Shown here piece by piece: positions 11,559 through 40,341 of a stretch of 64,000 nucleotides of DNA (its first letter is position 1; every line of letters starts with the position of its first letter). The stretch is from assembly GCA_001447805.1 (NCBI GenBank), contig CP013099.1, forward strand, positions 310,001 through 374,000. Reading direction: 5' to 3'. The translations under genes and the position numbers were made by a program. Below the pieces are notes generated by a model. That model was not told where the DNA came from and searched no databases. It saw only the letters and a program-made list of their open reading frames with translations. This DNA comes from Candidatus Tenderia electrophaga. GTDB taxonomy: Bacteria > Pseudomonadota > Gammaproteobacteria > Tenderiales > Tenderiaceae.

Positions 11559-11602
11559 TTGATAAATCTCAATGCATAGCAAGGCGGCTTGCGAAATACT
11601 AT
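11559..11602 (+). promoter_or_regulatory. FNR/Anr-type class II promoter
   Basis: TTGAT-AAAT-CTCAA at 11559-11572 differs from the FNR consensus (TTGAT-N4-ATCAA) at one position. TACTAT at 11597-11602 makes a fair -10 box. If transcription starts near 11608, the site is centred at about -42, the normal place for FNR activation of a class II promoter. It serves the DUF2892 gene at 11729. Oxygen-responsive control is therefore inferred from position and sequence, not shown. Confidence 0.65.
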
Positions 11603-11607
11603 TACTC

Positions 11608-11728
11608 AAGTATTCGCCGCGACCCTACTAACTAGGGAGGCGGGTGCAAGTAAGAGTACCACGAGGGGTTGTCCCCTACGCCAATGGCAGCCCCCCAACA
11701 TCAGCATAATTGCTGAAAGGAGGCAATC
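11608..11728 (+). ncRNA. Structured 5' leader of the DUF2892 gene
   Basis: The inferred untranslated leader is about 120 bases and folds well on paper. Hairpin 1 pairs CCGC (11617-11620) and CCCTA (11623-11627) with TAGGG (11633-11637) and GCGG (11640-11643), leaving a small symmetric internal loop. Hairpin 2 is AGGGG-TTGT-CCCCT (11664-11677). Hairpin 3 is TCAGCA-TAAT-TGCTGA (11701-11716), ending directly at the AAGGAGG ribosome-binding site (11717-11723). The last hairpin could affect access to that site. I do not recognise the leader as a known riboswitch class. Confidence 0.45.
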
Positions 11729-12043
11729 ATGGCCAAGATACGTGCAGTCTTAAATACAGGGCCTGCTGACCGCATTACCCGATTGGTGCTGGGTTTCGCG
11801 CTATTTTTCTGGATGTATTCGCTAGGCACCCTGGAACCGTTGGAGATTGCGGGGATGTTCGTCTCGTTCTACCTGCTCCTGACCGGCCTGCTGGGCTGGG
11901 ATCCGATTTATCACGTGCTTAAATTCAAGTCCATGTCGGAAGAACAGGCACAAAAAGGGCAGCCCTACTGCGAGAATAAGCCCCGGCACGATAGCAATGT
12001 GACATCGACTCGCCCCGATGGCCACTCGGCCCTGCGTCGCTGA
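11729..12043 (+). CDS. DUF2892 (YgaP-type) inner membrane protein
   Basis: A 104-residue protein with two predicted membrane helices (about residues 17-35 and 41-60: LVLGFALFFWMYSLG and IAGMFVSFYLLLTGLLG), the arrangement of the DUF2892 family, whose best-known member is the membrane part of the YgaP rhodanese. This copy has no rhodanese domain. Its tail beyond residue 75 is hydrophilic and less conserved, with one Cys (PYCENK). AAGGAGG six bases upstream fixes the start. It stands alone between an FNR-type promoter and a strong terminator, so it is its own transcription unit, probably used at low oxygen. Confidence 0.85.
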   Translation: MAKIRAVLNTGPADRITRLVLGFALFFWMYSLGTLEPLEIAGMFVSFYLLLTGLLGWDPIYHVLKFKSMSEEQAQKGQPYCENKPRHDSNVTSTRPDGHSALRR

Positions 12044-12080: not shown

Positions 12081-12108
12081 TAAAGAAAACGTCCATGTAG
12101 GCGAAACG

Positions 12109-12142
12109 GGCGGCGTTCCCAAGCGGGGAGCGCCGCCTTTTT
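12109..12142 (+). terminator. Rho-independent terminator
   Basis: GGCGGCGTTCCC (12109-12120) pairs with GGGGA and CGCCGCC (12125-12137) around the loop AAGC, with one bulged G at 12130, and is followed by TTTTT (12138-12142). It terminates the DUF2892 transcript. Confidence 0.92.
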
Positions 12143-12269: not shown

Positions 12270-12674
12270 TTACCTGGGCTGCACTGCTAAGGCGAGGCGT
12301 GTGATACCCGCCTGTTGCAAATCCCCCATCACTCCGGCCAGGGTCTCATAATGTGTCATGCCATCGGCATTGAGCCGCAACACCAGCTCCGGTGTGGCCT
12401 TAAGACGTTGCTGCAGATGCTCAATCACGCTGCTACGGGTCACGGCATCGCCCTCCAGCAGCAGCCCACCATCGGGCATCAGCACCAGGTCGACCACCAC
12501 CGGTTCGTTCAGGGGTTGGGCCTTGGCCTGCGGCAGTTTGACTTGCAGGGCGTTGGTGATCATGGGCGCCAGCAAGATGAAAATCACCAACAGCACCAAC
12601 ATGATGTCCACCATCGGGGTGACGTTGATCTCCGACAGGGGTTGATCGTGATGATCGGTGGTACCGGCGCTCAT
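12270..12674 (-). CDS. exbD: ExbD/TolR-type biopolymer transport protein
   Basis: Part of the proton-driven motor that energises TonB (or a TolA-like partner) in the inner membrane. The 134 residues show one N-terminal membrane helix after a short cytoplasmic tail ([22 protein letters not shown]); the Asp in [11 protein letters not shown] is the conserved proton-translocating residue. The C-terminal periplasmic part ([22 protein letters not shown]-like) is typical of ExbD. It starts at the ATG at 12674, overlapping the exbB stop as ATGA, so the two are translationally coupled. Because exbB is truncated upstream by an insertion element, this gene may now lack its native promoter. Confidence 0.93.
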
Positions 12675-13067
12675 GGTGCTGCCTCCGCAGTGGCCGCGGG
12701 TCCGCGGGCCAGCAGAGCACGGGTATTGACCTCGATGATGGCGAGCAGCTTGCGCAGGCGCCGAATCAGCAGATTGTAACCGGCCACCGCCGGGATGGCG
12801 GCGAACAGTCCCATGGCCGTGGCCACCAGGGCCTCGCCCACCGGTCCCGCCACCGTCTCCAGGGAGATGCCCGTGCTGCCGCCCAGATTCTGCAGGGCGT
12901 GCATGATGCCCCACACCGTGCCCAGCAGGCTGATGAAGGGGGCGGTGTTGCCCACCGTGGCAAGCAGGGTAAGTTGATTCTCCAGCTCCAGGCGTTGCCG
13001 TGTTAGGCCGTCGTTACGGGCGCTCTCGTCGGCCGGGTTGCCGTGCTTGAACAGTTGGCCCGACAAC
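12671..13067 (-). pseudogene. exbB: exbB (MotA/TolQ/ExbB proton channel), N-terminus lost to IS insertion
   Basis: About 132 C-terminal residues of an ExbB/TolQ protein remain. The hallmark stretch is intact: [26 protein letters not shown], followed by [29 protein letters not shown], which hold two of the three membrane helices. Coding sequence stops at the IS boundary at 13067/13068, so the first helix and the cytoplasmic start of a normal ExbB (usually over 200 residues) are missing. The frame can be read about 110 bases into the element as unrelated residues (start near 13177), which might give a chimeric product but not a normal one. The rest of the gene is not found elsewhere in the window. 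Confidence 0.9.
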
Positions 13068-13127
13068 TGATGTGGTCTGATACATCCGGACACCGAGTTA
13101 AGGCTGTAAAATGCCATAACGGGGTGA

Positions 13128-13424
13128 ATGATGCCAACAGAGAAGAAGACAAGACGGAAATACACGGAAGACTTCAAGCGGGACGCGGTGGCGCTGGTGA
13201 CCGAACAGGGTTACAAGGTGGCGGAGGCGGCCCGGAGTCTGGGGATCAACGACAATCTGCTGCGCCGATGGCGGCAGGAATTTTCGGACGATGCCAGCGG
13301 TGCGCAGCTGTCGGCGGATGAGCGCGAGGAGCTGAATCGGCTGCGGAAGGAGAACCGCATGCTGCGGATGGAAAAGGAGATTTTAAAAAAAGCCAGCCAG
13401 TACTTCGCGAAGGAAATGAAGTGA
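13128..13424 (+). CDS. IS3-family OrfA (transposase helix-turn-helix subunit)
   Basis: Ninety-eight residues. The N-terminal part ([14 protein letters not shown] then [21 protein letters not shown]) is the OrfA helix-turn-helix that binds the IS ends, and the C-terminal part ([21 protein letters not shown]) is the leucine zipper used for oligomerisation. A run of seven A followed by G (13385-13392) near the end is a classical -1 slippery site. Slippage there reads in frame into orfB and would make the OrfAB transposase. Confidence 0.93.
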
Positions 13425-14296
13425 AGTACGCCTTCATCCGGGACCATGCATGCCGTTGGCCGGTATTGCATCTGTGCCGCCTGCTAGGTGTGCAGCGCAG
13501 TGCCTACTACGACTGGCGGGACCGGCCTGGCCAGGTCATTCCGGCCGAGGAACTGGCCTTGCGGCGGCGCATGAAGGCGTTGTTCAAGGCCTCCCGGGAC
13601 AGTTTGGGTAGTCGAACGATGGCGCGCAAACTGCGCGAGGAGGGCTTTGAGATCGGCCGTGACCGGACGCGCCGCCTGATGAAGGCGTTGAGCCTGGAGG
13701 TTAGAGCGAAGCGCAAATACAAGGCGACAACCGACAGCAAACACCAGCTGCCGGTGGCGGAGAATGTGCTGAACCGCCAGTTCAACCCGACGAGGCCGAA
13801 CCAGGCCTGGGGCGCAGATATCACGTATCTGTGGACGCAGGAAGGCTGGGTATACCTGGCGGTGGTGATCGACCTGTATTCGCGCCGCGTGGTCGGCTGG
13901 GCCATGGATCGGCGCATGAAGAAAGCCCTGGTGATCCGGGCCTTGCTGATGGCGATCAATCTGAGAAACCCGCCACCAGGCCTGATCCATCATTCGGACC
14001 GTGGCAGCCAATATGCCAGTCGCGCCTATCAGAAGCTGCTGGCACAACATGGGATGGTTTGCAGTATGAGTCGCAAGGGTAACTGCTGGGATAATGCCCC
14101 GGTGGAACGCTTCTTCAGTAGCCTGAAGCGGGAATGGACCGGTGATCGCTTGTACCGGACCCGGAAGGAAGCGATTGCTGATGTCCGGGAATACGTGGCG
14201 GTGTATTACAATGCTCAGCGCCTGCATTCGACGCTGGGTTACAAGACACCGATGGATTACGAAAAGGACCTTAACAAAGTGTCCGGAAACACTTGA
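13421..14296 (+). CDS. IS3-family OrfB (DDE transposase catalytic subunit)
   Basis: Begins with GTG overlapping the orfA stop (GTGA) and encodes 291 residues. An HTH_21-like segment comes first (SLGSRTMARKLREEGFEIGRDR), then the retroviral-integrase-type core: first Asp in WGADITYLWT, second Asp in HHSDRGSQYAS, catalytic Glu in VERFFSSLKRE. The last residues (YNAQRLHSTLGYKTPMDYE) are the family tail. All three catalytic residues are present and there is no internal stop, so the element may still be active. Confidence 0.94.
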   Translation: MKYAFIRDHACRWPVLHLCRLLGVQRSAYYDWRDRPGQVIPAEELALRRRMKALFKASRDSLGSRTMARKLREEGFEIGRDRTRRLMKALSLEVRAKRKYKATTDSKHQLPVAENVLNRQFNPTRPNQAWGADITYLWTQEGWVYLAVVIDLYSRRVVGWAMDRRMKKALVIRALLMAINLRNPPPGLIHHSDRGSQYASRAYQKLLAQHGMVCSMSRKGNCWDNAPVERFFSSLKREWTGDRLYRTRKEAIADVREYVAVYYNAQRLHSTLGYKTPMDYEKDLNKVSGNT

Positions 14297-15888: not shown

Positions 15889-17310
15889 CTACATTGGGCT
15901 CTTGAACTCAGAATGCACATTTCTGTACCTCGGCTGTTCCTGCTTTGGATTGTAGGCTCTCGCGTTCCTTTCTTTTGCCACACGACTTCCCAAGATATCT
16001 CTCGCCTCACCCAGTGACCATACTGTCGAGATGTCATTGGTAAGATTCCGGTAAGCTGCACGGAACCCCCTTGGCTGATGTAAATCTGCCAAAAACTCTG
16101 GAACTTTCATTTTCAGCCCGAAATCAGGCGCCCGCGGCAGACCTTTAAGTGCAGCATAGGAGTTGTAAACCTGAACTAGTTTTGTAATCGGAATGCCTTG
16201 GCGGGTCTGAATTCCGTACTTGATTCGCATGTCATTCGAACCCTTCTGAATATCACGCATTATTTTCGCCACCGCCTGATTCGCCTGAGTAACCCCAGAT
16301 TCGTCAAACAACCGCCTAACCTCTCGAAGCTGCTCTCTAGCCTCAACGAGTTCAGGAGCGTCCCGGACTTGGCGAGCAGCTACAATGATTTGAGCTGGAT
16401 CTCCTGTTTGCATGGCTAACCACGCCGAAAAGACCGGTAACTGAAGTCCAGTAGATGCTGTCAAACCGGCGTGATGAATTTCAAAAACGTCATCGACTAA
16501 TGAATTTGAAAAGCCGTTGACGATGTGGCGTGCGTAGTCGAAGCCGTAGTTACACGTTTGGCTGAGGTAGCTTTGCTGGTAAGTTTGCCTTATGGGGTAT
16601 AGGAAAGTATCTGCCTGTAGGTGCCTGCCGGCCATGCTGTAGAAAATTGAACGATTCGCGAGCCATACGAGCGATGCAACGAAAGCTTTGATAGCTCCCG
16701 ATGCTTCTCCAGTCGATTCACCACCATTGTTCCATTTCGCCCCAGGAACTGTGTATCCCTTAGTGATGGGTTGGCCATATCGATCTACTAGTTCGACCGC
16801 ACTACCTGATCTATGCCCCGACTCACTGGCATCACTCAATTCTGAAAATATCGCCGCCGCAATGTTTCCGTATTTCGCGAAATCTTCAGCATTGTCGGAA
16901 AGGCTCTTGAGGGTGAGATGGTAGACACTGGAGTTGATATCCCATGTGCAGACAATGTGTGTTTGCAGGAGCTCAATCAGATTCCTAAATTCCTCATTTA
17001 CAAACTCACCACCCTGAATTCTTGGCCTCAGCTGGTCTGCTTCTCGTCCTGCAACCGATTCTATTTCTGTGAATCCGTAGCCGTCTTTGTCCAAGAATGT
17101 AATCTCGGGAAAGGCCGTCTTCCGAGTATCTCTGTAGGCTTCAATGTAGTCGTCTACAGCCACCAATCTGTCGTAAAACAACGTGGCTTGAACAAAGTTT
17201 TCAAGCGCGACGATATCAACATCTACTGAGTCATCCGTTTTCGAGAGTGCTTCGCCAGTGAGTCTCTGCACTGCCGTGAGAGTTGCGTTGTCAATTAATG
17301 CGTACGTCAA
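15889..17310 (-). CDS. Integron cassette gene of unknown function (473 residues)
   Basis: I do not recognise this family. The protein is mostly polar, with no signal peptide and no clear membrane helix, and is predicted largely helical (for example ARQVRDAPELVEAREQLREVRRLFDESG near residue 330). Mid-chain it has a moderately hydrophobic stretch (AIKAFVASLVWLANRSIFYSMAGRHL). It is long for a cassette gene and AT-richer than the chromosome. It starts 29 bases after the GTTAGAGC end of one attC, with GGAGGAGAA ideally placed before the ATG, and its stop lies four bases before the next attC, so it fills one cassette. A defence or phage-interaction role is possible but only inferred from location. 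Confidence 0.75.
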   Translation of the reverse strand: MTYALIDNATLTAVQRLTGEALSKTDDSVDVDIVALENFVQATLFYDRLVAVDDYIEAYRDTRKTAFPEITFLDKDGYGFTEIESVAGREADQLRPRIQGGEFVNEEFRNLIELLQTHIVCTWDINSSVYHLTLKSLSDNAEDFAKYGNIAAAIFSELSDASESGHRSGSAVELVDRYGQPITKGYTVPGAKWNNGGESTGEASGAIKAFVASLVWLANRSIFYSMAGRHLQADTFLYPIRQTYQQSYLSQTCNYGFDYARHIVNGFSNSLVDDVFEIHHAGLTASTGLQLPVFSAWLAMQTGDPAQIIVAARQVRDAPELVEAREQLREVRRLFDESGVTQANQAVAKIMRDIQKGSNDMRIKYGIQTRQGIPITKLVQVYNSYAALKGLPRAPDFGLKMKVPEFLADLHQPRGFRAAYRNLTNDISTVWSLGEARDILGSRVAKERNARAYNPKQEQPRYRNVHSEFKSPM

Positions 17311-17690: not shown

Positions 17691-17811
17691 GCCGTATTTT
17701 CCCTTCGATAGATTGATTTCAATTAACTTACTTTGTTCTGACTTTTCCACAGAACTTTTTAACAACAACACACTTCATGGCTGAACTGAAACATGCAAAT
17801 ACTTCTTTGAC

Positions 17812-17923: not shown

Positions 17924-18304
17924 TCATGGAAGTTCATAGTACTGCCTGTGCCTATAAATACGGGATAATTCGCCCTCTGAGAATGTTAACCGAACCATAT
18001 TTTGCAAGTCCCCCTCTTCACCTATCGCTACGTAAATGATATTGCAGTCATATAACTCAGCGGGAATACCGTTCTTTACCTTTACCCACTTAAGTTTACC
18101 TGCGCACGATATTTTTTTGTAACCATGTGAGGTAATTAATTTTTTAACTACTGATATAGTTTCTTCTTTTCCATCCCCAATTGAAAACCCGTAGGCAGAG
18201 CCATCAGTAACACTGTGATGCTTTGTAGTTAATGCAAGCCATGCAACATAAATGGTGGGAACTCCTATTATTACTACTAGAAAAAACCATCCAAGCCATT
18301 TCAC
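17924..18304 (-). CDS. Integron cassette gene, small membrane-anchored protein (126 residues)
   Basis: Unknown family. One N-terminal membrane anchor (about residues 4-25, LGWFFLVVIIGVPTIYVAWLAL) is followed by a globular domain of about 100 residues outside the membrane with two cysteines (KKISCAGKLKW and LYDCNIIYV) that could form a disulfide. The start is a GTG at 18304 placed after GGAGGG; the preceding attC end (TTATAAC) is just upstream. The stop is six bases before the next attC. The tight packing between two attC sites is what identifies it as a cassette. Confidence 0.75.
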   Translation of the reverse strand: MKWLGWFFLVVIIGVPTIYVAWLALTTKHHSVTDGSAYGFSIGDGKEETISVVKKLITSHGYKKISCAGKLKWVKVKNGIPAELYDCNIIYVAIGEEGDLQNMVRLTFSEGELSRIYRHRQYYELP

Positions 18305-38145: not shown

Positions 38146-40341
38146 TTAGCCATACTTGCGTTCCTCGGTCGGAATCGCGCTGTCACCCTGTGCTGAGACC
38201 TCCGGCATCCGGGCCGCAGGTTCGGAAGATAGCGGCACCGGTCTGGTCAACCCCACCGTGAGGTCTTGCCAGCTTTCCCGATAGCCTACAAAGCTGCGTA
38301 TGGCATAAAGCAGAAAGCTTGCATTAAGCGCGGCGAATAGGGCGTGCGTGATGTAGCCTTCATTGATATCGAAGGCTGCACCGAGGGTCCATTGCAGAAA
38401 CAGCCCATAGGCGCAGACGATATATAGAGGCGCGGTGGCCGTGCGGCCCTGAATTTTCGGGGTGCGACCAAAGGGAATCTTTTTCTTAGTCAGGCCCTGC
38501 TGGATAGATTTGAATACGCCTGCCAGATTGACGGGGATCATCAGCAGGTTGAGCGCATAGACCTTAAACAAATCACGGTTGCGGTAACCGCACAGCACCA
38601 GGTCGCGGCCGTAGAGGAAAAAGTAGGGCGCGGCAGCCAGCGGTAACCAGATACTTTGGATGCTTTCGCTGAATGGAAAGGTCAGCATGACAATCAAGCC
38701 GATATTGACCGCTGCGATCGAGACCAGGTAGTGAATGCGCAGCAGGCCTTCATTGAGTTTGCCGAAGGGCTTGCGGGCGAGATAGCCCAGCAGCTTGGGC
38801 AGGATGATCAGGCCGCCGTTGGCCCAGCGTTGGCGTTGGATGCACAGGGAGCCGAAGTCGGGCGGCGTGGCGCTGTAGGCCAGGCGTTGCGGGTGGTTGT
38901 ACAACGACCAGCCTTTGGCGGCGAGGTCGACGCTGGACTCCGTGTCTTCAATGACGGTGCGGTCTTGGATAAAGCGCTTTACCGTGTGCCCCCGTTCTTG
39001 CTCCAGTGTGACAATATCGTCGAGCGCTTCGCGGCGCAGCAGGGCATTGGCGCCGACCCAATAGGTGGCGTTGTATTGGGTAAAGCCCTGATGAATGATG
39101 TATTGCATATCGGTGGTGGCGCCGGCGATACGTTCCAGTTCGGACGGCGCGCCGGGGATGGCGCTGTACGGCGTTTGGGCCACGGCGATGCGTTCGTTGC
39201 CCGGTTGTTCCATGATGTGAATCAACTTGAGAGCGTATTCGGGCAACAACAGGCTGTCGGCGTCGAGGGTGATGAAGTAATCCGCGACGGGAACTGACAG
39301 CGTAGCGTGCTCGGCGGTGGTTTCTTCCAGGTGCAAGCCGTCTGCCGTCCGGACTTCGCGATAATGTTTCCCGTTCAGCCCGATGTAGCTGTTCAGGTTC
39401 ATGGCCTTATTGGGCTCGTGGGACAGATTCTCGTAACGTTTGCGTTCGAAGCTGGTGATATCGCAACTGAATAGGCAGGCCAGGCGCTGATAATCATCAA
39501 CGATTTGCTCTTCACTCAGTGGTGCCTCGGCTTCCAGCAATTGCTTGAGCTGTGCGCTGCGCGCCTGATGTTGTGCGGCCCGATCGACAAATATCTTTTC
39601 CACGAACAAGCGATCGGTATGATCGGTGATGTCATAGGCGCTCGCCTGAGCCTCAAACCAGTCGGCGGCTTCCTGCCAGAGAGTGACGAGCAGTCGGGTT
39701 TCGGCCTTGCCGTTCAAGCGGGCACGCTGGCGACGGGCACGGAAGGTCTTGATCGACGAGTTGAACATGAAGGCCGGACGCTGCAGCATGGCCATGATAT
39801 GGGCGGGCAGTTCGCGCGCCTCGGCCAGATGCGCCGCATCGCCGGCGGTGTTGGGTTTGGGCGGATCATCGAGCAACAGGGTGACGCGACGCTTGGGATG
39901 TTCTTGCAAGGCAGCGGAGAGCAGTGTCTGGAAAATCACACGGCGTTCTTCTTTGTAGGACGGCACGAGAATGCTGAGCGCTTTGTCCGCGCTGCGTCGA
40001 TAGCTGTGGTTGAGCGCCTGGGGCGGGATATCGGCCTGACATCGCAAGCGCTTCAGGTAACCCAGACGTGTGCTTTGATATACCAGACTGCCGTAAATCA
40101 AAAAGCAGACGATGAGCAAAAAGCCTGAATGTCCCGCCAGTTGCGCCCATTGTTGCTGTTCGAGCTGGGCAATGAAGACGGGGTATTGTTCCCAGGTCGC
40201 CATGCCCACGGCGAACAAGGTGAAGGTGACACATAACCATGAGAGAAAGATTTCCTTGCCTGCCTTCCACCGCTCTTCCTGAATGGTGGACAATACACTG
40301 TCAGGCGAATCAGCATGCGCCTGAAAGAACTGCTTGGACAT
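38146..40341 (-). CDS. GT2 family glycosyltransferase, cellulose-synthase-like
   Basis: A 731-residue inner-membrane synthase. Two helices near the start (about 30-50 and 70-90) and four to five near the end (530-700) surround a GT2 domain. The motifs are in order: LSILVPSYKEER, LLLDDPPKP (first Asp), DYFITLDADSLL (DxD), TVIEDTESSVDLAAKGW (ED) and QRQRWANGGL (QxxRW), so the enzyme is processive by pattern. Between the first Asp and the DxD lies a long helical insertion of about 150 residues, which is unlike BcsA or PgaC. No PilZ domain is present, so direct c-di-GMP control of this protein is not evident. The polymer is not determined by sequence. Confidence 0.9.
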   Translation of the reverse strand: MSKQFFQAHADSPDSVLSTIQEERWKAGKEIFLSWLCVTFTLFAVGMATWEQYPVFIAQLEQQQWAQLAGHSGFLLIVCFLIYGSLVYQSTRLGYLKRLRCQADIPPQALNHSYRRSADKALSILVPSYKEERRVIFQTLLSAALQEHPKRRVTLLLDDPPKPNTAGDAAHLAEARELPAHIMAMLQRPAFMFNSSIKTFRARRQRARLNGKAETRLLVTLWQEAADWFEAQASAYDITDHTDRLFVEKIFVDRAAQHQARSAQLKQLLEAEAPLSEEQIVDDYQRLACLFSCDITSFERKRYENLSHEPNKAMNLNSYIGLNGKHYREVRTADGLHLEETTAEHATLSVPVADYFITLDADSLLLPEYALKLIHIMEQPGNERIAVAQTPYSAIPGAPSELERIAGATTDMQYIIHQGFTQYNATYWVGANALLRREALDDIVTLEQERGHTVKRFIQDRTVIEDTESSVDLAAKGWSLYNHPQRLAYSATPPDFGSLCIQRQRWANGGLIILPKLLGYLARKPFGKLNEGLLRIHYLVSIAAVNIGLIVMLTFPFSESIQSIWLPLAAAPYFFLYGRDLVLCGYRNRDLFKVYALNLLMIPVNLAGVFKSIQQGLTKKKIPFGRTPKIQGRTATAPLYIVCAYGLFLQWTLGAAFDINEGYITHALFAALNASFLLYAIRSFVGYRESWQDLTVGLTRPVPLSSEPAARMPEVSAQGDSAIPTEERKYG

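Follow-up and report, generated by a model that had tools for sequence, protein, structure and literature searches.

The window analysed here, that is, the whole stretch of 64,000 nucleotides, lies in a host chromosome of 3,656,958 bases, from an order that consists of a single family. It contains a small gene preceded by a GC-rich leader, about 120 nt long and folded into compact hairpins, with a Crp/Fnr-type candidate site upstream of the leader and an intrinsic terminator downstream of the gene (Table 1). The sequence-only reading of this region had described the gene as a member of DUF2892 and its unit as closed by a strong terminator, and both assignments were borne out: the terminator has the paired stem and T run listed below, and the match to PF11127 (YgaP-like TM, formerly DUF2892) spans nearly the whole domain, with a profile score above the curated cut-off.

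Table 1. Features of the DUF2892 gene and its upstream region (positions in the window), and loci elsewhere that carry the GTGA-N5-TCAC palindrome.
Feature	Position	Strand	Basis
Crp/Fnr-type candidate site TTGATAAATCTCAA, TTGAT-N4-ATCAA (9/10)	11559-11572	+	Sequence reading and single-mismatch site count
Overlapping weak -10 candidates, each 4/6	11595-11605	+	Hexamer matching
Putative 5' leader	11607-11728	+	Start from class II spacing; z between -2.8 and -4.1 relative to dinucleotide shuffles
Hairpin 1 (GTATTCGCC...GGCGGGTGC around CCCTA/TAGGG)	11610-11648	+	-18.4 kcal/mol, a stability reached by 0.7% of shuffles
Hairpin 2 (AGGGG-TTGT-CCCCT)	11664-11677	+	Pair probabilities 0.94-0.99; 1% of shuffles as stable
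Extended hairpin 3	11680-11733	+	-20.2 kcal/mol; 1.2% of shuffles as stable; pair probabilities about 0.73-1.0
Upstream ORF of 10 codons, MAAPQHQHNC	11684-11716	+	Direct sequence reading
DUF2892 gene (PF11127, YgaP-like_TM), 104 aa	11729-12043	+	E 2.9e-10; 40.6 bits against a cut-off of 25.3
Intrinsic terminator	12108-12138	+	13 pairs, 10 of them GC, then a T run
GTGA-N5-TCAC loci: L036, L005, L009, L010, L015, L019, L024, L026, L028, L029, L032, L033, L040, L064, L067, L068, L069

The encoded protein has only distant homologues, with about 30-40% identity at best, and no close orthologue of the gene was found in plasmids, genome contigs or 398 genomes of the phylum (E 1e-7). In the relatives examined, including those of the genus, the DUF2892 gene does not adjoin sbcB, and other genes are found there instead. 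A mobile or viral origin was considered and rejected, as no viral contig matched the pattern of hairpin 1 and no plasmid DNA match was obtained. Further downstream, within 12671-14296, an IS3-type element, with orfA at 13128-13424 and orfB at 13421-14296, appears to cut off the start of a minus-strand ExbB/TolQ-like frame (12671-13177).

With respect to the candidate site, the window contains seven single-mismatch FNR-type sites, whereas shuffles would give 1.64, and about 0.002 are expected by chance in a single upstream region of 170 nt. Judging from the sequence, the rarity of the site at 11559-11572 is notable, short of proof. An intergenic site of the same type, TTGATTTCAATTAA, is located at 17713-17726, between reading frames 15889-17310 and 17924-18304. 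If the site ahead of the DUF2892 gene is read as class II, with its centre (11565.5) at -41.5, transcription would start near 11607. The hexamers AATACT (11595-11600), TACTAT (11597-11602) and TATTAC (11600-11605) stand at a workable distance for this arrangement, each matching at four of six positions, and a scan with the sigma-70 consensus detected no promoter upstream of the gene. The -10 box that had been noted previously is represented by these overlapping candidates, whose match to the consensus is weak.

The leader, which had been described as unusually long and folded for so small a gene, folds more strongly than shuffled sequences. The segment 11595-11735 reaches -53.9 kcal/mol (z -4.1 against dinucleotide shuffles), leaders taken from starts between 11600 and 11608 give z values of -2.8 to -3.3, and among stretches of 121 nt drawn at random from the window, 0.7% attain a z of -3. 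The three hairpins previously proposed are present, but not as a unique fold: given a start at 11607, hairpin 1 faces competing pairings, one of them with the beginning of the coding region, and the predicted ensemble reshuffles it, so that the three-stem picture is, according to the model, one among several near-equal folds. In the predicted ensemble, hairpin 2 is robust, and so is hairpin 3 in its inner part (inner stem 11701-11716). The last stem had been described as ending at the Shine-Dalgarno (SD) sequence; the stem itself stands, but its extent is greater, since the pairing of its outer arms (11680-11695 with 11719-11733, at high predicted probability) takes in the SD (11718-11723) as well as the AUG (11729-11731), and can cover both.

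No DNA match to this leader was found in 95 relatives, six of them of the genus, and no further copy exists in its own genome. A covariance model (R1), built from this leader as a single sequence with its hairpins and reaching moderate divergence only, gave no convincing match in 11 family genomes and chance-level matches only (E 0.006-0.03 per genome) in 369 genomes of the class; likewise, no leader homologue was detected by covariance model near the DUF2892 genes of 58 loci. No Rfam family was matched at gathering level in the window, and a permissive search yielded chance-level matches only, which upholds the earlier remark that the leader corresponds to no known riboswitch. Taking into account that many relatives are incomplete MAGs and that a loose prefilter preceded Infernal, conservation of the leader between species is, on the sequences compared, absent in the genomes searched, the genus included. 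A check of the leader across species had been proposed previously; no second species was found to carry it, and thus there is no support for a regulatory RNA conserved between species.

These results bear on the possibility that the box is a chance match, that the hairpins reflect incidental folding of GC-rich intergenic DNA, and that transcription starts elsewhere. This reading, which we regard as possible though doubtful, is favoured by the weak -10 hexamers and the lack of a consensus promoter, by a leader that is not conserved and a locus that is not syntenic in the genus, and by the fact that at least two other single-mismatch sites are intragenic, those at 39212 and 39487, both within reading frame 38146-40341. 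It has to be set against the very low number of sites expected in one upstream region, the fitting class II spacing, and a leader folding that ranks within the top 1% of the window.

It could also be proposed that the leader is a new cis-regulatory RNA responding to a ligand or to a trans-acting factor, either a translational riboswitch or a leader-peptide switch based on the upstream ORF, which would free the SD on a signal. The extended hairpin occludes the SD and AUG in the predicted ensemble, the z of about -3 to -4 points in the same direction, and the upstream ORF, which is His-rich and has Cys as its last residue, ends a single base ahead of the SD, so its translation would be expected to melt the 5' arm. 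However, when the window's 24 SD-bearing reading frames are compared, the occlusion of SD and AUG falls at the 54th percentile, and the mean accessibility of the DUF2892 start region equals the average of the 24 other SD-bearing frames; when the upstream sequence is shuffled, 4% of the shuffles conceal the start equally well. The predicted pairing is consistent with a mild damping of translation without requiring a switch, and, the occlusion being average for the window, even this damping may be nothing special. Moreover, the upstream ORF lacks a good SD, its own AUG is paired in the predicted ensemble, and its presence in the leader is probably due to chance. Together with the lack of a leader homologue in any genome searched and of any Rfam match, this makes such a switch unlikely. 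Its more specific form, a riboregulator restricted to this lineage that makes the DUF2892 SD accessible (by ligand or upstream ORF) and is driven by a non-FNR Crp/Fnr regulator, is very unlikely.

Regarding the regulator, nine proteins with a Crp/Fnr helix-turn-helix (HTH_Crp_2) exceed the Pfam cut-off in the genome of the host; all of them were read, and the N-terminal cysteine cluster of FNR is present in none. A search with E. coli FNR gave only partial matches in this genome, with 22-24% identity. The query was validated by strong near-full-length matches in other genomes, with E values down to 6e-71. At E 1e-20, no canonical [4Fe-4S] FNR was found in the complete genome of the host or in ten family relatives, yet the same query was positive in 15 of 26 other genomes of the class. 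The nine-of-ten box thus stands, whereas FNR in the strict sense is not supported as its reader, and a true oxygen-sensing FNR promoter, which the match to the FNR consensus would suggest, is largely refuted by the lack of both the orthologue and the cysteine cluster and deserves hardly any credence. Oxygen control of the DUF2892 gene is, likewise, not supported.

In FNR, TTGAT half-sites are read by a recognition helix of ExxSR arrangement. Helices of this type occur in Crp/Fnr proteins of the host, ESVSR in L087-L089 and EVISR or EVVSR in L082/L083, and thus a related regulator could use the TTGAT site. One of these proteins, L088, has only distant resemblance to characterised Crp/Fnr proteins. 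The reader of the site is likely to be a Crp/Fnr-family protein other than FNR.

Control of this kind has precedents among DUF2892 genes. In Bradyrhizobium, the DUF2892 gene bsr5776, whose operon has the box TTGATCTTGCTCAA, belongs to the NnrR regulon (PMC6710368); in Azospira suillum, a DUF2892 transcript is abundant and rises about 10-fold during H2S oxidation, the phenotype of the deletion being slight (PMC5358917); and in Acaryochloris, a DUF2892 gene is probably co-transcribed with a petC gene induced under microoxic conditions (PMC5295598). Redox-linked control by a Crp/Fnr protein would therefore not be surprising.

In the course of the comparison with DUF2892 genes elsewhere, a different element was observed. 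The 13-bp palindrome GTGA-N5-TCAC lies some 75-150 nt ahead of many gammaproteobacterial DUF2892 genes and was present in 21 of 57 upstream regions (about 17 of 48 once loci fetched twice are removed), with an expectation of 0.0027 per region calculated from the remainder of the same loci. Where the flanks were read, it often has a Crp/Fnr-type regulator gene on one side and the DUF2892 gene on the other, and it is also carried by a DUF2892 paralogue of the host itself (L036, C1:1778009 region), beside the regulator L082. It appears to be an operator common to such regulator-DUF2892 pairs, and would open a way, accessible to experiment, towards the role of this widespread family of unknown function. 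The DUF2892 gene at 11729-12043 does not have it.

Taking these results together, the reading that we favour, at about even chances, is that of a lineage-specific Crp/Fnr-type promoter followed by a stable 5' UTR, and not that of a conserved ligand-binding riboswitch. The DUF2892 gene would form a single-gene transcription unit; a Crp/Fnr activator other than FNR would most likely bind at 11559-11572 and recruit RNA polymerase to the weak -10 near 11595-11605; and the last hairpin of the leader, able to hide the SD and AUG, may passively damp translation, stabilise the mRNA, or both. The start site, the identity of the regulator and the effect of the hairpin are inferred. This proposal is supported by the rare site, the stable folding, the predicted SD/AUG pairing, the terminator and the ExxSR Crp/Fnr proteins of the host; counting against it are the weak -10, the average occlusion and the fact that the site could have arisen by chance. 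If right, this would be an ordinary, locally evolved regulatory region. Its lessons are negative: FNR cannot be deduced from an FNR-like box, none of the family genomes searched having the protein, and the strength of a fold without conservation is no evidence of a riboswitch.

Compared with known systems, the leader shares with translational riboswitches and SD-sequestering leaders a stable hairpin able to cover the SD and AUG, but differs from them in having no Rfam match, no conserved core and no second species. The upstream region departs from the class II promoters of FNR, NnrR and DNR in its weak -10 and in the absence of a canonical FNR from genome and family, whereas it resembles such promoters in its nine-of-ten consensus match, and the spacing to its candidate -10 hexamers would be compatible with -41.5. 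The DUF2892 protein, unlike E. coli YgaP (PMC4730233), is without a rhodanese domain, and, as other DUF2892/PF11127 YgaP-like proteins, it is a small membrane protein in which nearly the full domain is matched.
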